This document shows positions 1 through 13,719 of a DNA stretch of 64,000 nucleotides, one piece after another (the first letter of the stretch is position 1; every line of letters starts with the position of its first letter). A program made the translations under genes and the position numbers. The notes under the pieces were generated by a model, which ran no database searches, had not been told where the DNA came from, and saw nothing but the letters and a program-made list of their open reading frames with translations. Origin of the DNA: Enterococcus diestrammenae (lineage in GTDB: Bacteria; Bacillota; Bacilli; Lactobacillales; Enterococcaceae); the NCBI RefSeq assembly GCF_009933255.1, contig NZ_MAEI01000007.1, forward strand, positions 1 through 64,000. The letters are read 5' to 3'.

Positions 1-177
1 CGAAACGATGAGATACTAACCCGCTGGAATCTCGAAAAAATTCTCACAAATCGTGTCCGAGGTATTGACTCAAATCCACCCACAGATGCACAGAATAGTG
101 CACCTACAGATACGCAACCCGCCTTTTTGCTCTTTTTCGTTGAAAAGAATAGCATAACGAATTCCCCACTTTCTTAA
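1..177 (+). CDS. Possible C-terminal end of a gene cut by the window edge
   Basis: The plus-strand frame beginning at base 1 is open for 58 codons and ends with TAA at 175-177. It reads as a hydrophilic stretch rich in Asn, Thr, Pro and Gln followed by a short hydrophobic run. I do not recognise it. The opposite strand is also open here (ATG near 156 reading left to the edge, with GGGG about 8 bases upstream), so the coding strand is uncertain and neither may be real. Confidence 0.3.
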   Translation, partial: RNDEILTRWNLEKILTNRVRGIDSNPPTDAQNSAPTDTQPAFLLFFVEKNSITNSPLS

Positions 178-322
178 AGTATTTGTCCGAAGATTTAGAA
201 CTTAATTCCTCGTCGACACCCAAAGTATAGTACCTATATTCTTCTTTTTAGCTTTATCGTTGTAAACTGCTAGTTTTTATGTAGTAATCTGTAAAAAAAG
301 TATTATTGGATCCTTTTTTAGA
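178..322. other. AT-rich gene-free stretch
   Basis: No open frame with a ribosome binding site is seen between the possible partial gene at the left edge and the terminator of the sensor kinase operon. No small peptide gene with a recognisable AgrD or double-glycine leader was seen here. Confidence 0.4.
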
Positions 323-365
323 TGCAAAAAAACTCCATAAGAACCTTATATAGCTTCCTATGGAG
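323..365 (-). terminator. Intrinsic terminator after the sensor kinase
   Basis: CTCCATA plus GAA at 333-343 pairs with TTC plus TATGGAG at 355-365 around an 11-base loop. On the minus strand the stem is followed by a run of seven or more T. It closes the repressor-regulator-kinase transcript. Confidence 0.8.
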
Positions 366-407
366 GTTTACTATATTATTTTGTGAATTGGTTTAGGAAA
401 AAGTAGT

Positions 408-1673
408 TTATTGTGCAATACTCTGCCCTACTGGAATAATAATCAAAACTTTAAACTCATTTTCATTCCATGAAAAATCAGAGTATCCCTCTAATTTCTG
501 AACTCGTTCTCTAATACTATTTATTCCTAATCCGTATCTTCCCTTTCTTTTCGCTGACCGGATCAGCTTACTAGAAATATTCAGATTATTTATCCTAGCC
601 GGATTAGTTACTTTCATAATGATTTTATCATCACGATAATGAATAGAGATTTTTATCTCTTTTTTCGGGGAGTCTATTCTATTACATTCTTCTATCGCAT
701 TATCTAATATATTTCCAAGAATCGCACAGATATCGACAACATTATGCTTAAAATCAAGATCTGCCGGAATTTTTAGATCCAGTGAGTATAAAATGTTTTC
801 AGTATTCATTTCATTTATCTTACTACTTAGTACAGTATCAATGGGCCAACAGCCAGTATATGTTTGGAATGAAGACGTAGCAGTTAGAGTAATATTTTCT
901 AACAACTTCTGTGCTGTATCAACATTTCCTTGCGCTAACTGGAAATTTATACTTAATAATAGATTTTTTAAATCATGCTTTAAAATACGAAATTCTGATT
1001 GTTTTCTTAACATTTCGTCATAGTGCTGATTTTGCATTCCAGATAGTGTCTGTTGTTGTAATAGGTAAGTTTTTTCAGTTAGATAGTTGTATAAAAAAAT
1101 GTTCATAATATTTACTATCAATAATCCAATACTTACCCAGATACTCTCAAATTGTGAAAAATGAAACGGATACATCAGTGTACCTATCGATAACAGTGGG
1201 GTTATAGACAACATAATATATTCTTTAGTTGCCAAGCCAATTTCATTGGTACTCTTAAAATAGTGAAGAAAAAAGATTATTATTAATGACAAAACTGTAA
1301 TTGATATATAAGACAATATAAACTGTAAGAAAACAATATTAGAAGGATCACTCTGTGTAGCAACCAGTAAACTATTCTGAAATAAAAATAAAAAAATTAC
1401 ATAGAGGTAATGGTACATCTTTTTTGGGGCTGGTCCGTAGAAACAAAATATTACTAATCCAGCTACAACAATAAAAAAAATATAGGTTAAGTTTAACCTT
1501 AGATTTTGACTATTTATTGAAATCTTTGTAAAGAGAATCAATAGTATGCAAAGTGTATAAAAAGACACTTTTTTTATTTTTAGTTCTAAGAAGCTACTCA
1601 AATAAAACGCAACATACCATCCCTGTAATGCGCCTAAAAAAATGGCCAATATAAGTATAAATAATTCTTTCAT
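408..1673 (-). CDS. AgrC/FsrC-like GHKL sensor histidine kinase
   Basis: Membrane sensor kinase of the peptide-quorum-sensing type, 421 residues. The first 200 or so residues form about six hydrophobic segments. They are followed by a linker and a phosphoacceptor region with the motif ILKHDLKNLL near residue 232, an N box ILGNILDNAIEEC near 320 and a glycine box KGRYGLGINSIRERV near 385. This is the HPK10/GHKL layout of AgrC, FsrC and bacteriocin-pheromone kinases. The ATG overlaps the stop of the upstream response regulator by four bases (ATGA), so the two are translationally coupled. The likely role is to bind an extracellular peptide and phosphorylate the regulator. No peptide precursor or AgrB-type protease is next to it; these may lie left of the window. 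Family call is firm; ligand and target are unknown. Confidence 0.9.
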   Translation of the reverse strand: MKELFILILAIFLGALQGWYVAFYLSSFLELKIKKVSFYTLCILLILFTKISINSQNLRLNLTYIFFIVVAGLVIFCFYGPAPKKMYHYLYVIFLFLFQNSLLVATQSDPSNIVFLQFILSYISITVLSLIIIFFLHYFKSTNEIGLATKEYIMLSITPLLSIGTLMYPFHFSQFESIWVSIGLLIVNIMNIFLYNYLTEKTYLLQQQTLSGMQNQHYDEMLRKQSEFRILKHDLKNLLLSINFQLAQGNVDTAQKLLENITLTATSSFQTYTGCWPIDTVLSSKINEMNTENILYSLDLKIPADLDFKHNVVDICAILGNILDNAIEECNRIDSPKKEIKISIHYRDDKIIMKVTNPARINNLNISSKLIRSAKRKGRYGLGINSIRERVQKLEGYSDFSWNENEFKVLIIIPVGQSIAQ

Positions 1674-2401
1674 ATCCCTAATGACCTTTCAATGAAGTTT
1701 CTATAGCACTCTACAAATTTTTTCTTCTTCCCTCTACTAATTACCTCTTGATCTCCATTTGTCAAATGAACAATAGTATCCTCTATTCGCTCAATATAAT
1801 TTAGGTTTATTATCGTCCCGTAATTTACTTGTACAAAAATGGAACTACCCAGATTAGCTATAATGTCTTTTAAGCGAGCATAGTAAACAATATCTTCCTG
1901 ATTGTTACACATGGTGATTCGAAGTTTTCTCCCCTTCTCGGAGGTAATTCGAATTATTTGATCACATCGTACTTGATATTGCGTACGATTAACCTTTACG
2001 AAAAGGTATTGATTATCACTAGAAATTTTATCAACCGCTGCATCTAGGAGAATACGTATTTCATTTTCTTTAACGGGCTTTAGTAAATATCTAAATGGTG
2101 AAACTTCAAAGCTTTGAAGAGTATAGTCATCAAAGCTCGTAATATAATTTAATAATACTTGTTGATCACTTTCCCTGATAAACTTAGCAGTTTCAATGCC
2201 ATTAATTCCATCCATTTCAATGTCTAAAAAAATCATTTGATAAACTATTTCTTGATTCCGAATCCCTCTCAATAAGGATTCTCCACTGCTATAAATATCA
2301 ATATCTACTTCCAAGCCCTGATTTATCATATAGGTATCGATCATTTTTTCTAGGAGTGTGCTTTGGAGCTCTTCGTCATCACATATTGCAATTTTGTACA
2401 T
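1670..2401 (-). CDS. AgrA-like LytTR response regulator
   Basis: Cytoplasmic two-component response regulator, 243 residues. The receiver domain begins with the acidic pair in AICDDEE (residues 8-9) and has the phosphoacceptor Asp at about 60 in FLDIEMDG. The C-terminal 110 residues, with conserved patches around VNRTQYQV and VNYGTIINLNYI, match a LytTR DNA-binding domain. The ATG is preceded by GGGAGG. Only 23 bases separate its start from the stop of the upstream XRE repressor on the same strand, so repressor, regulator and kinase probably share one transcript. LytTR proteins usually bind two direct repeats about two helical turns apart. I found no convincing site of that spacing in the window. 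Its target may be the element itself or unseen cargo to the left. Confidence 0.9.
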   Translation of the reverse strand: MYKIAICDDEELQSTLLEKMIDTYMINQGLEVDIDIYSSGESLLRGIRNQEIVYQMIFLDIEMDGINGIETAKFIRESDQQVLLNYITSFDDYTLQSFEVSPFRYLLKPVKENEIRILLDAAVDKISSDNQYLFVKVNRTQYQVRCDQIIRITSEKGRKLRITMCNNQEDIVYYARLKDIIANLGSSIFVQVNYGTIINLNYIERIEDTIVHLTNGDQEVISRGKKKKFVECYRNFIERSLGI

Positions 2402-2424
2402 AGCCAGCCTCCCAGCAAGAGTTT

Positions 2425-3285
2425 TTATTTAAACCAGTCTTCCAATTCATCCGTCCTGACTTTACTATAAATTTGGATTAGTGCCGGACGTAACGTTTCA
2501 AATGCTTCTATCAATTCTTCCCCACCAAATCTTCCGGAAAAGGATTTCTTCGTCAGTTCTTCGGACAATCGATTGATAAGTTCGACAGTTTTTTGTTGAT
2601 CTGCCAAGATATTTATTAGTTTTCCTACTAAATACCGATCTTCAAAATTACTGTCTGCAAAAAAATCGTACTTATCGACTTCCTGCTTAACCAGATTAAT
2701 CATATCATATTTTTTTTCATAATTAAATTCACCGGCTACATCCATGTATTCGATGATTCCACTTGTAATAACGGCGACTGCCTCATCTTTCTTCTGTTTA
2801 GATAATTCGTCGGCAATCGATAAATTCTTTATCTGATCACGTACCATCCTTTGAATTTCTTCTTTAATGACTTCTTGTTGCAGTTCATAAAAATAATCAT
2901 CCATAAATTCCTCACATGGATAACCAACTTCATTTTCCCATGCAGGATTTTTAAATTCCCCAGTGTAAAACTCTTCTTTGATTGCTTTCACAACTTTTGG
3001 ATGTTCTTGTACAATCCTATTCTGACCTTTTAACTGCAAATAGTCCGAAATATATTCTTCAATGTCACCAAAGTAAAACCAGCCTACCGGTTTCCCACTA
3101 ATACTCGATAATTGGTTAATGACACTTTCAGGGGCTAACGCATAGCCTTGAACATACGAGCTGATTGTTGGTTTCTTTTTCCCCAAGCGGTTGCCTAACT
3201 CTGTAAAGGACAGATTCATACTCTCTTTGATTTCTTTGATTCGTTGTCCTACCTTCACTTTATCAGGTTGTAATAAGCCAAACAT
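2425..3285 (-). CDS. XRE-family repressor of the integrated element
   Basis: Protein of 286 residues with an N-terminal helix-turn-helix of the Cro/CI type (about residues 14-68, VGQRIKEIKESMNL followed by LSFTELGNRL and the recognition segment KKPTISSYVQG). The remaining 200 residues are helical and acidic with no Ser-Lys (LexA/CI) protease motif and no metallopeptidase HExxH. Derepression is therefore unlikely to be by self-cleavage; an antirepressor or another signal is needed, as for Stl of phage satellites. It is divergent from the rep-int operon. The ATG follows an AGGAGG site, and an extended -10 (TGATATAAT) lies about 30 bases upstream. It is the likely ligand of the CGTATAAA sites between the two operons. 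Confidence 0.85.
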   Translation of the reverse strand: MFGLLQPDKVKVGQRIKEIKESMNLSFTELGNRLGKKKPTISSYVQGYALAPESVINQLSSISGKPVGWFYFGDIEEYISDYLQLKGQNRIVQEHPKVVKAIKEEFYTGEFKNPAWENEVGYPCEEFMDDYFYELQQEVIKEEIQRMVRDQIKNLSIADELSKQKKDEAVAVITSGIIEYMDVAGEFNYEKKYDMINLVKQEVDKYDFFADSNFEDRYLVGKLINILADQQKTVELINRLSEELTKKSFSGRFGGEELIEAFETLRPALIQIYSKVRTDELEDWFK

Positions 3286-3313
3286 AGATTACTTCCTCCT
3301 TGTCATTTTCCCT

Positions 3314-3342
3314 ATTATATCACTCGTATAAAATTTCGTATA
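3314..3342 (-). promoter_or_regulatory. Leftward repressor-operon promoter with overlapping operator
   Basis: On the minus strand TATAAT (3319-3314) carries a TG one base upstream, giving an extended -10. The -35 region at 3337-3342 is poor (TATACG) and coincides with the second half of the first CGTATAAA direct-repeat site (3325-3342). A protein bound there would cover the -35/-10 region, consistent with autoregulation. Confidence 0.65.
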
Positions 3343-3446
3343 TATTTTTTCGCTAAATCTCTTGACTTCGTATAAATAAACGTATAAAATGCAAATCATA
3401 GATGGCCGTCTATATTTTTTAAACCAACCGTATAAATTATCGTATA
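3325..3446. promoter_or_regulatory. Three 18-nt operator sites CGTATAAAWWWWCGTATA
   Basis: CGTATA occurs six times in the divergent control region, at 3325, 3337, 3369, 3381, 3429 and 3441. The copies form three pairs, each exactly 12 bases start to start, so the sites are 3325-3342, 3369-3386 and 3429-3446. Site 1 overlaps the leftward promoter, site 2 lies across the -35/-10 spacer of the rightward promoter, and site 3 is in the leader just before the ribosome binding site. The arrangement is that of a lambda-like operator set. The XRE repressor is the likely ligand. Confidence 0.75.
3362..3390 (+). promoter_or_regulatory. Rightward promoter of the rep-xis-int module
   Basis: TTGACT at 3362-3367 and TAAAAT at 3385-3390 are separated by 17 bases. 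Operator site 2 occupies most of the spacer and the -10, so binding should block RNA polymerase. Confidence 0.75.
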
Positions 3447-3463
3447 CCAAAAGGAGGGCTATT

Positions 3464-3814
3464 ATGCCAATTAAAATCAATGATCTCACCTTACCAAAAG
3501 AAAAACTCGAAAAAGAATACCAAGTTGTCAATGTTACTCGCTGGCAAAAAGATGGAGAAATTCTAGGTTGGAGTTACGAATGTATCCTACCTAAACTCCG
3601 CTACGAGAAAATCAGTGTCAAAGTCAAATCTGAAAATCCTATAATCACTCCGGAAGAACTTACCCAACAAGGGTTGGCCATGGTTACATTTGCCAATTTA
3701 GTGATTGCACCTTGGGGCCGCTCAAACGGTCAATTCGTCAGTTATGGCTTATCGGCCACAGCAGATGCGGCAACTTTGATTCCGAAAAAACAAAGTTCCA
3801 CTGTACAAAACTAA
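3464..3814 (+). CDS. Small unknown protein upstream of the replication initiator
   Basis: First gene of the rightward operon, 116 residues. The ATG at 3464 is chosen over in-frame upstream codons because AAGGAGG at 3451-3457 sits 6 bases before it and because the promoter -10 lies at 3385-3390. The sequence alternates charged and beta-prone segments (YQVVNVTRWQKDGEILGWSY, then KISVKVKSENPIITPEEL, then a WGRSNGQF patch) with no signal peptide or membrane segment. I do not recognise the family. Its position next to a HUH initiator would suit a single-strand DNA-binding or replication-accessory protein, but that is inference from place only. Confidence 0.7.
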   Translation: MPIKINDLTLPKEKLEKEYQVVNVTRWQKDGEILGWSYECILPKLRYEKISVKVKSENPIITPEELTQQGLAMVTFANLVIAPWGRSNGQFVSYGLSATADAATLIPKKQSSTVQN

Positions 3815-3818
3815 TTTT

Positions 3819-4018
3819 CCTATGGGTTTGTTGGGTGGTTAGGACGAAACGGCGGGGCAGCGCCATAGAGCCGCTTCTGTCCGTTAAGACCGCCCAATAA
3901 ACACATAGGCTGGAAGGACTGCTTTGCAGGACTTCCCCTTAACTTGATTTATAGAACAACATCAGGAGAAAAATGATGGTTCTTTGACAACTGAATACAC
4001 ATCAAGGAGTGATGATTT
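3819..4018. promoter_or_regulatory. Highly structured segment before rep; candidate replication origin
   Basis: This 200-base gap holds three nested or consecutive inverted repeats. A long imperfect stem runs from CCTATGGGTTTGTTGGGTGGT (about 3819-3839) to its near complement ending in ACATAGG (about 3906), with an inner GC-rich stem around GGACGAAACGGCGG. A second hairpin pairs GGAAGGACTGC (3912-3922) with GCAGGACTTCC (3926-3936) and contains a tandem G-A mismatch. A third pairs AGAAC/CATCA with TGATG/GTTCT (about 3953-3982). Such structure beside a HUH initiator is expected for a double- or single-strand origin. No nick site was identified. An RNA element controlling rep expression is the alternative. 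Confidence 0.5.
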
Positions 4019-4864
4019 TTGAAAGCTTATAATCAGAAAATCATTGAAACTCCCACGTACCTTGAAATTTATGATTATGAAGCAATCATTACTCCTAAAC
4101 AAAAAGCAGAAAAAAATGAAACCAACCCAAAACGAAAGAAAGAATTAGCTTGGCTTTATGAAGAAGAAAATACGACTACTGATAAAAGAAAAAAATATGA
4201 TGAACTATCCGCTCAAGGGCAATACGACAGCTTAAAACGAAAACAAAAATACTATCAAAATATGCGCTTTGAAATTGCCCGACTCGTGGATACGAACTTT
4301 GACAATCGAACAAAATTTTTAACCCTCACTTTCAGAGAAAACATTCAAGACATTGCCTATGCGAATAATGAATTCAAAAAATTTATCAAACGACTAAACT
4401 ACGAACTCTATCACACAAAAAAAGCACATCTAAAATACCTAGCCACGTGGGAAAAACAAGAACGAGGTGCGATCCATTATCACATTATCCTGTTTGACTT
4501 CCCTTTTATCTCCATTAATCGTCTTACTACTATCTGGGGACATGGATTTGTCAAAATCAACAAGATTGATGTGGATAGTATCGAAAATCGTGGGCGCTAT
4601 ATCAGTAAATATTTCGATAAAGACTTGGATTTGAAAGAATATAAGAAGAAGGCGTTCTTCAAATCCCGTAACCTCAAAGTACCCAGCGTCACGAAGCAAC
4701 TCGTGGATCAACCTTTTGATACCACAGATCAAGACGTACTTTATACCAATGAGTATCTTGTAAGACGTCCAATATTTTACAGCGCGATAAATGAAGGTGG
4801 AAATCCTGAACAAGTGATGGATTTTCAAGAAAGCACTGTTCGCTATACAAAAATAAAAAAATGA
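4019..4864 (+). CDS. rep: HUH rolling-circle replication initiator
   Basis: Nicking-joining endonuclease that would start rolling-circle replication of the excised element, 281 residues. Motif 1 is FLTLTFREN (about residue 101), the metal-binding HUH-type motif is GAIHYHIILF (about 151), and the catalytic tyrosine motif is NRGRYISKYFDKD (about 195). Spacing and order fit single-tyrosine plasmid and filamentous-phage type Rep proteins. The start is taken as TTG at 4019, because AAGGAG at 4004-4009 is well placed and the nearby ATG at 4012 runs into a stop. The first 90 residues are very lysine- and glutamate-rich. There is no helicase domain, so it would depend on a host helicase such as PcrA. 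Confidence 0.85.
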   Translation: MKAYNQKIIETPTYLEIYDYEAIITPKQKAEKNETNPKRKKELAWLYEEENTTTDKRKKYDELSAQGQYDSLKRKQKYYQNMRFEIARLVDTNFDNRTKFLTLTFRENIQDIAYANNEFKKFIKRLNYELYHTKKAHLKYLATWEKQERGAIHYHIILFDFPFISINRLTTIWGHGFVKINKIDVDSIENRGRYISKYFDKDLDLKEYKKKAFFKSRNLKVPSVTKQLVDQPFDTTDQDVLYTNEYLVRRPIFYSAINEGGNPEQVMDFQESTVRYTKIKK

Positions 4865-4885
4865 ATCTCGAAAGTAGGTAAAAAT

Positions 4886-5158
4886 ATGACTGTTAATGTA
4901 CCGATTGAATTCAATCAAGAAATAATTGAAGAGCTTGTTCAATTAACGAAGCAAAGAATTGAGGAAGAAGCACAGCAGCAAAAAATGAAGGAGTTACCTC
5001 CCTACCCAACGCGAAAACAATTAAAACAACAACTAAAGATTGGCGATACACGCCTCAATAATTGGATTGATCATGGATTGAAAGTCATTCCTTTTGGTAA
5101 AGAAACTCGCTTTGATCGTGAGGATGTAAAACTATTTTTAGACAGTCTAAAAATCTAA
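4886..5158 (+). CDS. xis: Excisionase-like HTH protein
   Basis: Protein of 90 residues. The C-terminal half (from PTRKQLKQQL through FDREDVKLFLDSL) has the winged MerR-like helix-turn-helix of excisionases and HTH_17 proteins, ending in the typical EDVxxFL segment. The N-terminal 35 residues are a charged helix. It lies 21 bases after rep and just before the integrase, the usual place for Xis. It would bend attachment-site DNA and favour excision. Confidence 0.75.
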   Translation: MTVNVPIEFNQEIIEELVQLTKQRIEEEAQQQKMKELPPYPTRKQLKQQLKIGDTRLNNWIDHGLKVIPFGKETRFDREDVKLFLDSLKI

Positions 5159-5160
5159 CC

Positions 5161-5189
5161 TTGACTTACCTGTTGTTGCTGACTATGAT
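5161..5189 (+). promoter_or_regulatory. Separate promoter for the integrase gene
   Basis: TTGACT at 5161-5166 and TATGAT at 5184-5189 are 17 bases apart in the xis-int gap. No CGTATA site is nearby, so the integrase could be made while the main rightward promoter is repressed. Confidence 0.65.
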
Positions 5190-5252
5190 ACCGATAAGAA
5201 AGGAGCAAATCTTCTCTTTGATATACTGGCGAGTGAATCAAAGGAGACAATT

Positions 5253-6476
5253 ATGATCAAAAAATATAAAAAGAAAAATGGGACAATCGCCTATATGTTT
5301 AAAGCATATCTTGGCATTGATCCGGTTACAGGAAAAAAGAAATACACCACCAAACGTGGTTTTAAATCACTGCAAGAAGCTAAGAAGGCTTATAATCGCT
5401 TGATGGTACAAGTAGAAGAAAATGATGTGGTGACAAATTCACAACGTCTTTTTTCAGAACTGGCAGATGAATGGTTTGAGCAATATAAAAACACGGTTCG
5501 TGAAAGTACCTATGTCGCCCAAAAATTGGCTTATAAAAAGCACATCTTTCCTCTTTTTGGAAATTTGAAAATCTCGAGAATTTCAATTCCTTATTGTCAA
5601 AAACAGGTAAACCACTGGTATAGCTATTACAAAAAATATTCCAACTTGATTGGTTTGACTTCATCTGTTTTCAAGTATGCTCTGAGTTTACGGCTCATCA
5701 GAAGTAATCCCATGGATGCTGTGATTCGTCCTAAACGTAAGAAACGGATTGACGAAGAGCGCTATTCTGCACCCTACTATGAAAAGGAAGAACTATTGGA
5801 ATTCCTTGAAATTGCCAAAAACTATCCTGATCCAATTTATCCGATTTTTCGGATCTTAGCTTTTACCGGGTTACGAAAAGGTGAACTTTTAGCCTTACGT
5901 TGGAAAGACATTGATTTTGAGAAAAGCACACTCTCTGTTAAACAAACCTTAGCCACATGTGATAAATGGGAAATCAAATTCCAAGTTCCCAAAACAGAAA
6001 AGAGCCTTCGAACAATTTCGATAGACTCTGAAACCTTACAAGTGATTAAACGATGGCAGTTGAAACAAAAAGAATACTTCCTGAGAATGGGAATTAAACC
6101 TACAAAAGACGGTGAACAACTCCTATTTGTGTCAGAAGAAAATAAGCCACTTTATTTAGACTATGTAAATCATAACTTAAAAATCATTATAAAAGAGAAC
6201 AACTTAAAACGAATCACACCTCATGGCTTTCGTCACACCCATTGTAGTCTGCTATTTGAATCCGGGGCTTCTCTCAAAGAAGTTCAGGTTCGGCTAGGTC
6301 ACACAGATATTAAAACGACTATGGATATCTACACCCATGTCACGAAAAGACAGACAGAAGAAACGGCAAATCGTTTTGCGGATTTCATGAGTTCCACAGA
6401 GGAAAAACAAGGAGGTTTGCAGAAGGTCAAAAGTATGGTCAAAAGCGAAAAAAAGCAGACTATCCCTATCAGATAG
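5253..6476 (+). CDS. int: Tyrosine recombinase integrase
   Basis: Site-specific recombinase of 407 residues. The N-terminal arm-binding domain (GTIAYMFKAYLGIDPVTGKK) and SAM-like core-binding domain (about 65-165) precede the catalytic domain. Catalytic residues are Arg in FTGLRKGELLAL (about 210), HGFRHTHC (about 325), LGH (about 350) and the nucleophile Tyr in TMDIYTHVT (about 361). It resembles integrases of Tn916-like and phage-satellite elements of Firmicutes. The ATG at 5253 follows AAAGGAG. The last codons form one arm of a hairpin that serves as terminator for rpmE on the other strand. The attachment site is predicted between its stop and the rpmE stop. Confidence 0.93.
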   Translation: MIKKYKKKNGTIAYMFKAYLGIDPVTGKKKYTTKRGFKSLQEAKKAYNRLMVQVEENDVVTNSQRLFSELADEWFEQYKNTVRESTYVAQKLAYKKHIFPLFGNLKISRISIPYCQKQVNHWYSYYKKYSNLIGLTSSVFKYALSLRLIRSNPMDAVIRPKRKKRIDEERYSAPYYEKEELLEFLEIAKNYPDPIYPIFRILAFTGLRKGELLALRWKDIDFEKSTLSVKQTLATCDKWEIKFQVPKTEKSLRTISIDSETLQVIKRWQLKQKEYFLRMGIKPTKDGEQLLFVSEENKPLYLDYVNHNLKIIIKENNLKRITPHGFRHTHCSLLFESGASLKEVQVRLGHTDIKTTMDIYTHVTKRQTEETANRFADFMSSTEEKQGGLQKVKSMVKSEKKQTIPIR

Positions 6477-6481
6477 TCTGC
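6447..6481 (-). terminator. Terminator of rpmE lying inside the int 3' end
   Basis: GCAGACTATC (6455-6464) pairs perfectly with GATAGTCTGC (6472-6481) around a 7-base loop. On the minus strand it is followed by TTTTTTT, so it terminates rpmE. The left arm and the loop are integrase codons. Confidence 0.85.
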
Positions 6482-6507
6482 TAAACGTTGATTTAACAAT
6501 GTTTTGA

Positions 6508-6771
6508 TTATTCCGCAGCGTTTGCGTCTTTGAGACCGTATTTTTTGTTGAAACGGTCGACACGTCCGTCTGCTTGGGTGAATTTTTGACGGCCAGTGTA
6601 GAATGGATGAGAGTCAGATGTTACTTCGACACGGATCACTGGATACGTGTTGCCATCTTCCCATTCAACAGTTTCTTGAGAGTGTTTTGTAGAACCTGAC
6701 AAGAATTTAAAACCTGTTGTGGAGTCCATAAATACAACTGGATGGTAATCCGGATGGATATCTTGTTTCAT
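6508..6771 (-). CDS. rpmE2: 50S ribosomal protein L31 type B
   Basis: Ribosomal large-subunit protein, 87 residues from the ATG at 6771, which has GGAGCG 9 bases upstream. It begins [16 protein letters not shown] and lacks the CxxC zinc motif of type A L31, so it is the zinc-free paralogue. It follows rho, as in other Bacilli. Its 3' end is the insertion target of the element on the left. Confidence 0.95.
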
Positions 6772-6870
6772 AATCGTTTTCGCTCCTTTGCCCTGGTCCA
6801 TCTGCTGCACCAGAGTTATTTGTCTAATTTACAACAGTAACATATTACCATGATTCAATTTTAGATGCAA

Positions 6871-8163
6871 TTATCTTTTTTGATTTCGCGGATTCTTTCG
6901 ACCAAAGCTAACTTCTGAAAAGGCATCAAACAATTCTTGATTGTTTTTGGTCTTCGTCAGCAGTTGCCGAAATTGCTCTGTATACTCTAAAGCATCCCCG
7001 GTCATGTTGTTGCGAATCTTCCAGGTTTCCTCCAGTTGATCCGGAGTCATCAAGAGTTCTTCTTTCCGTGTGCCGGAGCGTTTGATATCGATTGCTGGGA
7101 AGATGCGGCGTTCGGCAAGCTCTCGAGACAGGTGAAGTTCCTGATTGCCGGTCCCTTTAAACTCTTCATAGATGACATCATCCATCCGACTGCCAGTATC
7201 CACTAAGGCGGTGGCAAGGATGGTCAAGCTGCCGCCTTCTTCGATATTACGAGCAGCGCCGAAAAATTTCTTAGGTTTGTAGAGTGCCGCCGGATCAATC
7301 CCCCCACTTAACGTACGCCCGCTAGGAGGAACCACCAAGTTATAAGCTCGTGCCAGCCGGGTGATGCTGTCCATCAAAATCACGACATCACGCTTATCTT
7401 CCACTAAGCGCATCGCTCGTTCCAAGACCAGCTCGGAAACACGAGTATGGTTTTGTGGTTGCAAGTCAAAAGTCGACGAAACAACGTCCCCTTTGACGCT
7501 TCGTTCCAGATCAGTGACTTCTTCGGGACGTTCGTCAATCAATAAGACAATCAGCTCGACTTCGGGATAGTTATCGGTAATCCCATTGGCAATTTCTTTC
7601 AAGATACTTGTCTTTCCAGCTTTTGGCGGGGCTACGATCAAGCCTCGTTGGCCAAAGCCAACCGGCGCAAAAATATCTATCATTCGCGTAGCCAAGCGGC
7701 CGCGAGTGGTTTCTAGTTTGATATGACGGGTGGGATACAAAGGGGTTAAGGCAGGAAAATGGGGCCGTTGTTTGGCTTCTTCGGGATCTTTGCCATTGAC
7801 CGACTCCACATGCATCAAGCCGTAATAGCGCTCTGATTCTTTAGGGGGACGGGCTTTGCCAGCGACTTTATCGCCATTGCGCAAGCCGAAACGGCGAATT
7901 TGTGAAGAAGAAATATAAATGTCTTCAGCACTGGGGCCGTAATTGATTGGTCGCAAAAAGCCATAGCCTTCTTGACCAATAATATCTAGGACCCCCTCCA
8001 TAAAATAAAAACCTTGTTTTTCTGCTTGAGCCCGGATGACCGCCAAGGAAAGCTCCTTTTTGTTCATCTGGCTATAGTAGGGAATTTTAAATTGTTTGGC
8101 ATAGTTGTAAATCTCTTTTAGTGTTTTATGTTCCAACTCTGCCATTGTTAAATAATCAGCCAT
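6871..8163 (-). CDS. rho: Transcription termination factor Rho
   Basis: Hexameric RNA-dependent ATPase that terminates untranslated transcripts, 430 residues. It has an N-terminal Rho-N helical domain (1-50), a cold-shock-like RNA-binding domain ([19 protein letters not shown], about 53-71), a Walker A motif APPKAGKTS and a Walker B stretch [16 protein letters not shown]. Length is usual for Firmicutes. ATG at 8163 follows GAGGTGG. It lies between murA and rpmE. Confidence 0.97.
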
Positions 8164-8244
8164 CTGGCCACCTCATCTTTTCTAAATACATAAGCAGGCT
8201 CTTTTTGGTAGCCAATCCACCAAAGAGAACCTGCTTGAATTTGC

Positions 8245-9516
8245 TTACTCTACCTCTGGAACTTCAACCATCTCGATATCCGCACCCAAAGCCGTCAGTT
8301 TCTCTACGATATGATCATAGCCGCGCAAAATAAACTCAACATTGCTGATGGTGGTTTCCCCTTCAGCCATCAAGCCGGCAATGACCAAACAAGCCCCGGC
8401 CCGTAAATCGCTGGCGACCACTTCAGCTCCATGGAGTTTACTTGGTCCGTTAATAATCATCATATTGCCTTCGATTTCAGCGGCTGCCCCCATCCGTTTC
8501 AACTCAGGAATATGGTTTACCCGCTTGGTATAGATAGTATCGATCACTTCTGAAGTACCTTGGGCTTTGATCAATAAAGGAGTGATTGGTTGTTGCAAAT
8601 CCGTTGCAAAACCAGGATAGGGATAGGTTTTCACAATGACTGGCTGAAGATGCGGTGCAGGATCGATTTCGATGGTATCTTCCGAAATCGCCATAGTCAC
8701 ACCGAGCTCTTCTAGTTTGGCAATGTAGCTTTCCAAATGTTCATAAATGACATTATGGACTTTGATTCCTTCACCGACTGCTGCTGCCAAAGCTAGATAC
8801 GTCCCTGCTTCAATCCGATCGGGAATAATCGAATGACGGCAACCATGCAATTCAGTCACGCCATCGATCCGGATTTCATTGGTTCCTGCCCCACGAATTT
8901 TTGCTCCCATATTGTTCAACAAGGTTGCCACATCGATGATTTCTGGTTCCCGCGCCGCATTTTCGATAATCGTGCGCCCTTTGGCTTTGACCGCTGCCAA
9001 CATGATGTTGATGGTGGCACCGATGGAAACCATATCCAAGAAGATGCGTTCGCCATGAAGGTCGTGATCATCTGTCCGCAGATACATCGCACCATGTTCG
9101 TTGGTCACTGTCGCACCAAGGCTTTCAAAACCTTTGACGTGGAGATCGATGGGCCGCGGTCCTAAATAACAACCACCAGGCAAACCGACCACCGCTTCGC
9201 CAAATTTCCCCAGCAAAGCGCCCATAAAATAATAAGACGCCCGCAAGCTATTGATTTTGCCACTAGGCATCGGGATGGAGACAATATCGGTGGGATCGAT
9301 GAATAACATGTTATTCGAAAAATTCGTCCGAACCCCCATGATTTCTAAAATTTCAATCAAAGAATGGACATCCTGAATATCAGGTACCCCTTCTAAGGTT
9401 ACCGGTGAATCAGCTAAAATAGCTGCTGGAATCAACGCTACCGCACTATTTTTGGCTCCGCTAATCGTGACTTCCCCTTTTAAAGGGCGGCCACCGCGGA
9501 TTTTTATTTTTTTCAT
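8245..9516 (-). CDS. murA: UDP-N-acetylglucosamine 1-carboxyvinyltransferase
   Basis: First committed step of peptidoglycan precursor synthesis, adding enolpyruvate to UDP-GlcNAc; target of fosfomycin. The protein is 423 residues from the ATG at 9516 (AGGTGA upstream). The active-site loop [16 protein letters not shown] carries the catalytic Cys at about 116, the residue fosfomycin alkylates. The N-terminal [16 protein letters not shown] segment is typical. Its place next to rho and fba matches the second Firmicutes paralogue (murZ/murAB), so another murA is likely elsewhere. Confidence 0.95.
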
Positions 9517-11136: not shown

Positions 11137-11410
11137 TTTTTCCACCTCATTTATTTCTGGCTAAGGGACTTCCTACTATTAAAATACAAGAAAATATGGT
11201 TACCTACTAGAAATTGGCGGTTGTTCTTTGGCAACTGCTGGTTGCATTCCCGTTGCAATCAGCAGTTTGACCTGGCAGCAACAGCAAACAGCGTCATCCT
11301 TACTACCAAAAGAATAACATGATTCCCTGGTAGAAAAAAGCTAAAGGGTGGCATTGTTTATGCCGACTTAAGAGAAAACCGGCAAGATTCACCGGGTAAA
11401 GGCTGTTAGA
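11137..11410. other. Gene-free stretch upstream of the HTH gene
   Basis: It contains several short inverted repeats built on GCAACTGC/GCAGTT (about 11230-11270) and a GGTAACC palindrome near 11200. It should hold the HTH gene promoter. No coding frame with a ribosome binding site was seen. Confidence 0.4.
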
Positions 11411-11414
11411 TTTT

Positions 11415-11475
11415 AGTCTCTACTAGCAAGGTGAAAGAAGCTCCTTCATAAAGCCAACTATCATTAGACTTAGTA
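11415..11475. repeat. Short dispersed repeat, family A (decayed copy)
   Basis: The stretch CTACTAGCAAGGTGAA, CTCCTTCA, AAAGCCAACTATCATTAGAC resembles the copies near 39815-39905 and 59175-59335, with the middle missing. CTACTAG and CTTAGTAG at its ends are roughly inverted. Confidence 0.5.
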
Positions 11476-11476
11476 G

Positions 11477-11668
11477 GGTGAAAACTTGTCCAGTAGAATT
11501 GATATGACAGTAGCTTTAAATACTGAAATGGCTATAAAATTATTACTCATACAGTTACATCTTGCAGAAAGATAAACGAGTAACGACAAATTGCTTTGTA
11601 TTTAGTATTTGCCAATCTAGCTATCCTTATATCAAAGTCTAGGTCGCTAAATTTTTACCTTTTTCCAG
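11477..11668. repeat. Large imperfect palindrome, family B (decayed copy)
   Basis: The left arm (GGTGAAAACTTGTCCAGTAG, GATATGACAGTAGC) is the near complement of the right arm (GCTATCCTTATATC, AGGTCGCTAAATTTTTACC). Both arms are clearly related to those of the better-preserved element at 53055-53267. Confidence 0.6.
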
Positions 11669-11752
11669 CATCAAAAAGATGGCCTGATCCGCTCTTAATT
11701 CCTAATACATCAGCCTTTTTGGCGCATAGTTTTTTGTAAGTTCTTCTTCCAC

Positions 11753-11796
11753 AAAAAAACTCCCACCACCGCAAAACTTGCAGTCGTGTGAGTTTT
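11753..11796 (-). terminator. Terminator of fba
   Basis: A stem pairs AACTCCCACCAC with GTGTGAGTT, with an inner GCAAAA/TTGC pairing. A T7 run follows on the minus strand. Confidence 0.8.
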
Positions 11797-11823
11797 ATAG
11801 TTAGTGATTTAACTAGTTTTGAT

Positions 11824-12693
11824 TTAGGCTTTGTTAGCTGAACCGAACCAGTCGATGTGTTCTTCTGCATCTTTAACGATGGCAGCTTTACCCGGAGCCA
11901 ACAATTTACGAGGGTCAAATCCTTTACCTTCGTGGTCTTTACCAGCTTCAATGTATTCGCGAGTTGCTTTTGCAAATGACAATTGGAATTCAGTATTAAC
12001 GTTGACTTTAGAAATCCCCATAGAGATTGCTTTTTCGATTTGTTCTTGAGGGATACCAGAACCGCCGTGCAATACCAATGGCACATCTTCGCCGACAGCT
12101 TTAGCAATTTCAGCTAAGTGGTCGAATGCCAAACCTTGCCAGTTTTCAGGGTAAACACCGTGGATATTACCGATACCACATGCCAATGAGTCGATACCTG
12201 TACCAACCATTTGGACACATTCATTAATGTCAGCTAATTCGCCAGCACCGATGATTCCGTCTTCTTCACCGCCAATTGAACCAACTTCACATTCAACTGC
12301 GATACCTTTAGCATGAGCCGCTTCAACAACTTCACGAGCTTTTTTCAAGTTTTCTTCAAATGGCAAGTGAGAGCCATCGAACATAACTGAAGTGTAGCCA
12401 GCGTCGATACAAGCCATTGCTGCATCGTAGTCACCATGGTCCAAGTGGATAGCAACTGGTACAGTAATGTTCATAGATTCAACTAAGTTATTGATCAAGT
12501 TTACGATCAATTTGTAGCCACCCATGTATTTTGCTGCGCCCATTGAAGTTTGGATCATGACTGGAGCTTTTTTAGCTTCTGCTGCTTCCAAGAGTGCTTG
12601 AGTCCATTCCAAGTTGTTTGTGTTGTAGCCGCCGATTGCGTAACCGCCTTTACGAGCTGCTTTCAGAAATTCTGCTGATGATACTACTGGCAT
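11824..12693 (-). CDS. fba: Class II fructose-1,6-bisphosphate aldolase
   Basis: Glycolytic and gluconeogenic zinc enzyme that cleaves fructose-1,6-bisphosphate to DHAP and glyceraldehyde-3-phosphate. It is 289 residues from the ATG at 12693, preceded by AGGAGGAATTTTATC. Zinc and substrate motifs are HLDHGDYD (about 82), VECEVGSIGGEEDG (about 132) and VLHGGSG (about 208). A further upstream in-frame extension has no ribosome binding site. It lies between murA and pyrG as in B. subtilis, with extra genes inserted on both sides. Confidence 0.96.
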   Translation of the reverse strand: MPVVSSAEFLKAARKGGYAIGGYNTNNLEWTQALLEAAEAKKAPVMIQTSMGAAKYMGGYKLIVNLINNLVESMNITVPVAIHLDHGDYDAAMACIDAGYTSVMFDGSHLPFEENLKKAREVVEAAHAKGIAVECEVGSIGGEEDGIIGAGELADINECVQMVGTGIDSLACGIGNIHGVYPENWQGLAFDHLAEIAKAVGEDVPLVLHGGSGIPQEQIEKAISMGISKVNVNTEFQLSFAKATREYIEAGKDHEGKGFDPRKLLAPGKAAIVKDAEEHIDWFGSANKA

Positions 12694-13062
12694 GATAAAA
12701 TTCCTCCTAAAATTGAGTACTTTATTTGTTAAGCCGTGACTTAACCAACGTCTATATTTTAGCAAAGTTATCCGATAAGCGCTAGTAATACCGCCTTATT
12801 CTTCTCGGATTTCCCTAAAAAAGGCGAAATTTTCCTATCTTTTTCAGAAAACTCATGATGGTTTAAGGAAAATAATCAAACCATGACAATTATCGCTACC
12901 GGCCTCGTTTCTGATACCCTACCTTTTTTGGAAATTTCTCCTTTCAAAGCAAAAAATCCCCTTCCCCTTGGTATAATGAAGCAAGTTAAAGCACAATCCT
13001 TTGCTTCTTAAAATGAACGTAAATATGAGAGGAAAAGGCTAGAAAGTAGGGAAAATAATCTG
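12694..13062. other. Divergent promoter region between fba and the FtsX-like gene
   Basis: On the plus strand TATAAT at 12972-12977 with TG one base upstream forms an extended -10 for the gene at 13063; its -35 is poor. The fba promoter was not fixed. Nothing else coding was seen. Confidence 0.45.
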
Positions 13063-13719
13063 ATGATGTTTTGGAAAACCAGCTATTTCGCTGAAAATGC
13101 TAGTAAAAATCTGATCCGCACACCGGGAATTTGGGGCACCGCGGTCCTCGTCTTCTTACTGAGCCTGATCACTTTTTGTGGCGTCAACGGCTTTTATTTA
13201 TTGAGCGATTGGTACCGAGAAGTCGCCACTGGTTTACGCGAAGCAGAAAATGGCACCGGTTCTCTGATTCAGCTGATCCAAGCTCCGTTGATCCCAATCC
13301 GCATCTTTCAAGGGCTTGCCCTTCTCGTCACACTCTGTGCCGGGGGAACGACGATTGCTTATTGTCATCGTAGTTTCCGTCTCTTCGCACAAACCCAGGA
13401 ACAAGACTTTAAAATCATGAGTTTAATCGGTGAAAGCGTCAGGGGAATCAGTGGCGAATTTGCCCTCCAAAGTCTGCTGTTTCTAGGGACAATCTTGGGG
13501 ATAGCCAGCATCGTTGCCAACCTCTTGTATTGGTTCAGCTTAGCCCCAGCTGTTTGTCATGATCGTTTCGGTAGCTTTGGCGCAATGCTGGTCGCTCTCG
13601 CTTCCGCTCATTTCCCGCTGATGGCCCTCGCTCTGAGCTATGTGGCTTTGCGCTTATTTGGCTATGTCCGCCGGCTACTGTGGTCCTGGCTAGACGGTCG
13701 GTGGGCTGTCACGGCATAA
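13063..13719 (+). CDS. Small FtsX-like membrane protein
   Basis: Integral membrane protein of 218 residues with four hydrophobic segments (about 24-48, 78-101, 133-158, 172-197). The segment QEQDFKIMSLIGESVRGIS followed by a hydrophobic helix resembles the conserved EIEIMRLVGA region of FtsX-type ABC permeases. The N-terminal NASKNLIRTPGIWGTA also resembles the first FtsX membrane segment. The extracellular loop between segments 1 and 2 is only about 30 residues, far shorter than in FtsX. No ATPase gene is adjacent, so a transport role is unproven. An upstream extended -10 supports expression as a single gene. ATG at 13066 is an equally possible start. Confidence 0.6.
   Translation: MMFWKTSYFAENASKNLIRTPGIWGTAVLVFLLSLITFCGVNGFYLLSDWYREVATGLREAENGTGSLIQLIQAPLIPIRIFQGLALLVTLCAGGTTIAYCHRSFRLFAQTQEQDFKIMSLIGESVRGISGEFALQSLLFLGTILGIASIVANLLYWFSLAPAVCHDRFGSFGAMLVALASAHFPLMALALSYVALRLFGYVRRLLWSWLDGRWAVTA

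Follow-up and report, generated by a model that had tools for sequence, protein, structure and literature searches.

Kinase-regulator pairs beside peptide genes are known from lactic acid bacteria. In the plantaricin pln system, a GHKL-type kinase and a LytTR regulator (a LytTR/HPK10 pair) are encoded beside peptide, exporter and immunity genes, and direct repeats with a spacing of about two helical turns are present. LytTR regulators prefer direct repeats with a period of 22 bases. According to a review, streptococcal peptides modified by radical S-adenosylmethionine (SAM) enzymes are under the control of Rgg/SHP systems, which have a cytoplasmic receptor (PMC13361665). Phage phiCDHM1 carries agrBDC without a regulator gene (PMC3901668), integrases of integrative and mobilizable elements that target rpmE are known (PMC5357655), and defence systems have been reported to lie close to lanthipeptide clusters (PMC12715929). 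Here we analysed a GHKL/LytTR pair encoded next to the repressor gene of an integrative element in Enterococcus diestrammenae. The window, i.e., the whole stretch of DNA analysed, comprises positions 1 to 64,000 of contig C7 (NZ_MAEI01000007.1) of a 3.16-Mb genome in 54 contigs (G000).

A first-pass annotation had interpreted the locus as an AgrC/AgrA-type quorum-sensing pair cotranscribed with the repressor of a mobile element, with a membrane kinase that senses an external peptide and may control the repressor, the replication or the cargo of the element. Our analysis makes it very probable that the two genes form the regulatory part of a cluster for a bacteriocin-like, radical-SAM type of ribosomally synthesized and post-translationally modified peptide (RiPP), and that this cluster is carried as cargo behind the repressor; the receptor would be supplied from the repressor promoter, and the pair would not control the repressor.

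The radical-SAM peptide cluster and its kinase-regulator pair

Position 1 of the window is a contig edge, so there is nothing to the left of it within C7. A first scan of genome contigs revealed 11 loci with the repressor, the nearest of which, L004 from E. canintestini DSM 21207, matches positions 78-6510 of the window (approximately 6.4 kb) with 99.6% identity. The identity just past rpmE is 79.6%, and this difference between the inside of the element and the sequence just outside it indicates a recent horizontal transfer between Enterococcus species. In L004, the kinase gene is followed on its 3' side by a gene for a 36-residue precursor peptide (13131-13241) and then by genes for a CAAX-type protease (PF02517), a 145-amino-acid membrane protein, a radical-SAM/SPASM enzyme, an exporter-type ATP-binding cassette (ABC) protein, an ABC ATPase and a 250-amino-acid permease. 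With a radical-SAM/SPASM enzyme gene next to those for a short, conserved precursor and for an exporter, these genes qualify as a radical-SAM RiPP cluster. Among the curated sactipeptide maturase models, the best match was StsB with 128.2 bits (cut-off 625), and none of the 25 model matches listed (of 81) reached its cut-off. The best NCBIfam match of the ABC ATPase was lantibiotic protection, with 168.8 bits, below the cut-off of 309.75.

We then surveyed the kinase. It had matches in 2 of the 10 genus genomes, in 9 of the 105 family genomes (E 1e-20), in 8 of the 395 order genomes (E 1e-40) and in 29 plasmid records, two of which were examined in their gene context. Ten loci outside the element, all from Lactobacillales, were compared (G091, G095, G083, G053, G088, G228, G148, G310 and the two streptococcal plasmid records). 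In all ten, the genes for the regulator, the kinase, the ABC ATPase and the permease lie close together, and the 10.7-18 kb of each locus contained no match to the repressor, the 116-amino-acid protein, Rep or the integrase of the element at E 1e-6. The radical-SAM gene is also present in five of them (G091, G088, G228, G148 and, as an interrupted copy, one S. salivarius plasmid). The loci without a radical-SAM match (L042, L043, L044, L046 and L102) possibly represent listening-in immunity loci. The kinase reading frame is broken in G095, G083 and G310. The radical-SAM enzyme was found in six of the 395 order genomes (E 1e-80), five of which hold the pair, the sixth being G082. Judged by gene content, the pair is a standing part of the radical-SAM peptide cluster and of its reduced relatives that retain only the ABC pair.

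The ten loci do not include G019 and G027, where the kinase matches are weak (28% and 24% identity) and are not accompanied by the peptide cluster, except for a single ABC ATPase match (28%) in G027. Two further weak kinase matches are located on contig C10 of G000. On the S. salivarius plasmid (L047, NZ_CP018188.1, 922-3883), inserted DNA that carries an ISSag10-type transposase gene and a predicted lnu(C) gene disrupts the radical-SAM gene. The pair-bearing clusters of L042 and L044 are located near rplM-rpsI, and no flanking repeats were found beside rpsI in these two loci; rpsI is described as a known integration target in PMC5357655.

The precursor motif GCVSVG...SVG.YIKEIK is conserved in five outside loci, G091, G088, G228, G148 and, in a shortened form, G095 (precursor homologues in L041, L045, L054 and L055, and shortened in L042); the second cysteine is missing in G148 and G095. 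Among 5.8 billion proteins, the precursor had three homologues, one named 'hypothetical protein' and two without a name. No description of the precursor or of the pair was found in the open-licence literature, where the motif GCVSVG returned zero papers.

In E. diestrammenae itself, the precursor gene is split after 26 codons by a repeat. The same 78-79 bases as in positions 1-78 of the window are present at eight other places in G000, and the repeat appears to be similar to an insertion sequence (IS), since a 408-amino-acid transposase-type open reading frame (ORF; rve, Mu-transpos_C_2) on C51 lies between copies of its two end sequences. The rest of the peptide cluster is on contig C44, which is 99.9% identical to L004 from 13205 onward and still contains all genes from the protease through the ABC pair. 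Downstream of the cluster, C44 (L027) carries a TrlF-family ATPase gene (6011-8595; 395.6 bits, cut-off 350), which is apparently split from its N-terminal part. At 11290-12750, the tail of another repressor lies ahead of the first part of a second radical-SAM gene, which is cut by the repeat of window positions 1-78, suggesting that the right end of C44 is the remnant of a tandem element.

We propose that the CAAX-type protease and the radical-SAM enzyme would together cleave and modify the peptide, that the ABC exporter would secrete it, and that the kinase would sense the mature peptide as its ligand. The regulator would then bind a direct repeat with a 22-base period upstream of the precursor gene and switch on the precursor, its maturation and export, and the ABC pair that presumably protects the producer from an antibacterial peptide. 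The pair itself would probably be read from the repressor promoter, and the quiescent state of the element would thus supply the receptor.

The putative regulator binding site

A direct repeat with a 22-base period is common to the regions upstream of the precursor or of the first ABC gene. We built a site matrix from six other clusters, leaving the site of E. canintestini and the window out of the training. In the element (17.9 kb), this matrix had a single match with 28.4 bits, the next best being 11.1, and the best sites in 30 random sequences had a mean of 12.1 (standard deviation 1.6, highest 15.4). The site is thus conserved and single in the element, and the regulator may bind there. 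In a leave-one-out analysis, the expected site was ranked first in five of the six loci. In loci not used for training, the best site was just upstream of the next cluster gene (L043, 21.9; L044, 16.0; L102, 17.7), and L044, L046 and L102 have a putative site upstream of their ABC genes. The best score in the 20 repressor loci that lack the pair was 14.5, and the matrix scan found no match in the repressor/rep region. A scan with the classical AgrA consensus, made before the 22-base-period motif was found, had given no convincing site.

The repressor element and its cargo slot

The repressor, regulator and kinase genes are all on the minus strand, with the 23-base gap and the 4-base overlap that had been noted previously, and the predicted rep-xis-int genes lie opposite, together with the gene for a 116-amino-acid protein (Table 1).

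Table 1 Features of the window in and around the kinase-regulator locus
Feature	Position	Strand	Basis
End of the IS-like repeat; interrupts the precursor gene; contig edge	1..78		Repeat copies in the genome; L004 homology starts at 78
5' remnant of the precursor gene	79..155	-	Intact homologue L004 13131-13241
Putative response-regulator site (22-base-period direct repeat)	253..291	-	Upstream of precursor; 28.4 bits
Terminator-like hairpin and T run, 3' of the kinase gene	325..365	-	Fold z -3.07
GHKL-type membrane histidine kinase, 421 aa	408..1673	-	PF14501; hydrophobic segments, H box
LytTR response regulator, 243 aa	1670..2401	-	PF00072 (Response_reg) and PF04397 (LytTR)
Element repressor (XRE-like), 286 aa	2425..3285	-	Homologues found; no family match
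Six CGTATA repeats	3325..3446		Likely repressor operators
116-aa element protein	3464..3814	+	Profile search, no family match; presence in related elements
Rep protein, REP_ORF2-G2P	4019..4864	+	Profile match, PF23343
Xis-like small protein, 90 aa	4886..5158	+	Place and conservation beside the integrase; no family match
Tyrosine integrase	5253..6476	+	PF00589, PF14659, PF14657
Attachment core, 36 bases, 3' end of rpmE (L31)	6507..6542		Second copy at the distal end in related elements

aa, amino acids.

The assignment to the AgrC/AgrA type was correct as far as it concerned a GHKL kinase with a hydrophobic N-terminal half (all hydrophobic segments lie within residues 1-198) and a LytTR regulator, but no AgrB or AgrD is encoded beside the pair, and the regulator reached 34.3 bits with the curated AgrA model, whose cut-off is 400. 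A search for an AgrB/AgrD-like pair beyond the left edge of the window had been suggested. A search with PF04647 found no AgrB in the element, and the Agr reading was dropped for this reason; G000 and G002 have one PF04647 match each (on C50 and C23), neither inside the element. The match on C50 belongs to an agr-like radical-SAM cluster (L029, 66-4273) with AgrB, an AgrD-like ORF, a LytTR regulator, ABC genes and part of a radical-SAM gene, whose kinase gene is cut by the repeat of window positions 1-78.

A tyrosine integrase gene and a direct repeat at the 3' end of rpmE mark the locus as an integrative element. In L007 and L040, the 36-base core recurs at the opposite end of the element, and L006 and L009 have longer imperfect copies there; the far copy is missing in G000 itself. 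A phage origin was considered and rejected, the radical-SAM protein having no match in the phage collection (E 1e-40) and the precursor DNA pattern having zero matches in viral contigs. Rep matched eight phage records, the best one with 55% identity in an unannotated record of 4,090 bases.

The repressor had zero Pfam or NCBIfam matches in the profile search, and its XRE label rests on its look, its position and the CGTATA repeats in the divergent intergenic region. This hexamer does not occur elsewhere within positions 1-7000, and the repeats are likely repressor operators. The single closing terminator that had been described corresponds to a hairpin with a T run, which was present only after the kinase gene, although it was not among the sites listed by the consensus terminator scan. 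Between repressor and regulator, the same scan found no terminator-like site, and the fold z was +0.67. No promoter-like site was listed by a consensus scan, a weak method, on the minus strand from 2402 to approximately 3040, i.e., over some 640 bases upstream of the regulator start. Cotranscription of repressor, regulator and kinase is thus plausible from the gene arrangement. In this case, the repressor promoter would drive the pair, which is the opposite direction of control to that proposed previously. Genes beside phage repressors are often expressed in the quiescent state, and a repressor promoter feeding the pair would mean that the slot holds cargo expressed in this state.

The repressor survey resulted in 25 matches at 24 loci in 19 of the 105 genomes, including three partial matches (G019, G034 and G092) that were left out of the comparison. 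We examined 23 repressor loci (the window, L004-L014, L056 and L086-L095, that is, 21 survey loci together with L013 and L014; approximately 2.1 and 4.2 kb 3' of the repressor were covered in L011 and L013, respectively). The pair was present, with at least 95% identity, in only three of them, the window, L004 and L014. The L014 locus, from Agrilactobacillus, is decayed, as the pair follows no more than a 3' piece of the repressor gene and neither the precursor nor the protease is present. As 20 of the 23 loci lack the pair, it does not always travel with the repressor/rep/int set. Five elements at rpmE without the pair (L006, L007, L009, L087 and L089) and the cluster of G091, which lies beside rpmE with no repressor, rep or int match, correspond to the pattern that, according to the first-pass annotation, would refute its interpretation. 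Direct repeats marking an element were looked for in G091 and not found; it is conceivable that this genome holds a decayed element. In L094, a regulator match (26% identity) lies at a distance of approximately 11 kb from the repressor.

The repressor gene shares its strand with the next ORF of at least 80 amino acids behind it in 17 of 21 loci. PADLOC defence models matched the cargo of six out of seven loci tested: type IIG restriction in L005 and L009, BREX in L010, type III restriction in L013, PDC-S73 and an Old/Gabija-like system in L007, and PDC-M68B and an argonaute-associated system in L008; L012 had no PADLOC match. In the elements L005-L010, which comprise elements at rpmE and unlinked ones, the repressor shares 81-97% identity with that of the window over its first 144 alignment columns, versus 56-89% over the last 96 columns. 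This divergence would fit an exchange in the 3' part of the gene, and faster drift would fit it as well.

Other radical-SAM genes were found beside related repressors. L056 (G082:C49, 2223-9815) is an element of the same type (repressor 48%, 116-amino-acid protein 70%, Rep 65%), and its slot contains no pair but a small helix-turn-helix (HTH) gene and a radical-SAM cluster of another kind (35%), for which there are three candidate precursors. L091 (G094:C11, 6653-12924; repressor 55%, no Rep or 116-amino-acid protein match) has convergent genes for an ABC ATPase, a permease, a radical-SAM protein, a distant LytTR regulator (29%) and GHKL kinase (26%), both on the opposite strand, an AgrD-like ORF and AgrB (PF04647, 105 bits). 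The candidate signalling arms beside radical-SAM clusters are a LytTR/GHKL pair in the window, a small HTH gene in G082 and a full agr-like set in G094.

Alternative explanations and comparison with described systems

It is very improbable that the pair responds to an external peptide by controlling the repressor, replication or excision of the element and acts on the peptide cluster in addition. The common strand, the 23-base gap without a terminator and the 3' piece of the repressor gene that L014 keeps with the pair would agree with such control, but no regulator site was found at repressor and rep, most repressor loci have no pair, and the pair stands beside ABC genes in ten loci without element genes. 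These ten loci support the cargo as the target among those proposed originally, whereas control of the repressor or of replication gained no support. The arrangement might also be incidental, the cluster having landed behind the repressor and transcription of the pair starting at a promoter within the repressor gene, with no regulatory tie to the element. We consider this quite possible, if somewhat short of probable, given the diversity of the cargo in the slot, the truncated repressor gene of L014 and the sequence upstream of the regulator in G091, which looks promoter-like by eye; it is at odds with the promoter scan described above, weak as such scans are.

In G000, the pair could alternatively act as an eavesdropping immunity switch that responds to a peptide made by other cells and turns on the protective ABC pair. 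The interrupted precursor, the five outside loci with the pair and the ABC pair but no radical-SAM match, and the putative sites upstream of the ABC genes in L044, L046 and L102 would all suit such a switch. Nevertheless, we lean against it, as C44 still carries everything from the protease gene to the ABC pair, the repeat insertion might not be the same in all cells, a shortened precursor-like ORF persists in L042, and the regulatory logic is itself inferred. Several observations also count against our preferred reading of the pair as the arm of a self-sensing peptide cluster. With the precursor interrupted, the circuit in G000 may be dead or only listening, and the position of the G091 cluster at the same chromosomal place possibly reflects a long shared history with the element family. 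Regarding the site, the motif was first spotted by visual inspection of sequences among which was the E. canintestini site, the leave-one-out analysis failed for G095, the score of L044 is barely above the highest random one, and no site was detected in L047, in DNA not including its upstream region; bases conserved upstream of homologous operons could, moreover, belong to a promoter.

A still broader model, which we regard as rather unlikely in its entirety, is that the element family maintains a swappable bay for weapons and defences behind its repressor, where cargo is exchanged by recombination in the repressor 3' part. Transcription of the repressor operon would supply the receptor of a self-sensing radical-SAM peptide, and the integrated state would arm both peptide warfare and immunity. 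Radical-SAM clusters would have been taken up several times with different signalling arms, and the pair with ABC genes alone would serve listening-in immunity.

To summarize, what looked like a membrane-receptor arbitrium becomes, on the preferred reading, a mobile, self-regulated radical-SAM peptide cluster that had no functional name in the searches made. It moved between Enterococcus species, to judge from sequence identity, and related elements carry anti-phage systems in the same slot behind the repressor. The locus offers a defined peptide, a receptor and a putative DNA site, and is a candidate for receptor-driven immunity without production. It also cautions that the target of a sensor can be misjudged when it is deduced from synteny with a repressor.

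Compared with described integrative and mobilizable elements at rpmE, the element shares the tyrosine integrase and the insertion at the rpmE 3' end and differs in its Rep, which is of the REP_ORF2-G2P family. It resembles phiCDHM1 in bearing an Agr-type kinase on a mobile element; unlike this phage and Agr systems, it has no AgrB/AgrD, and it possesses the regulator gene that is missing in phiCDHM1. The cluster is similar to the streptococcal and Enterococcus cecorum radical-SAM RiPP (RaS-RiPP) and sactipeptide clusters (streptosactin, enteropeptins) in its short cysteine-containing precursor, radical-SAM/SPASM maturase, ABC exporter and control by cell-cell signalling. In contrast to the Rgg/SHP-controlled RaS-RiPPs covered in the review, a LytTR/GHKL membrane-kinase pair is linked to the cluster, and its precursor motif differs from those of the named RaS-RiPPs, as far as compared. 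The plantaricin pln system shares the GHKL/LytTR pair beside peptide, exporter and immunity genes and the direct repeats of about two turns; here, however, the peptide is of the radical-SAM type, and no separate pheromone gene was seen.

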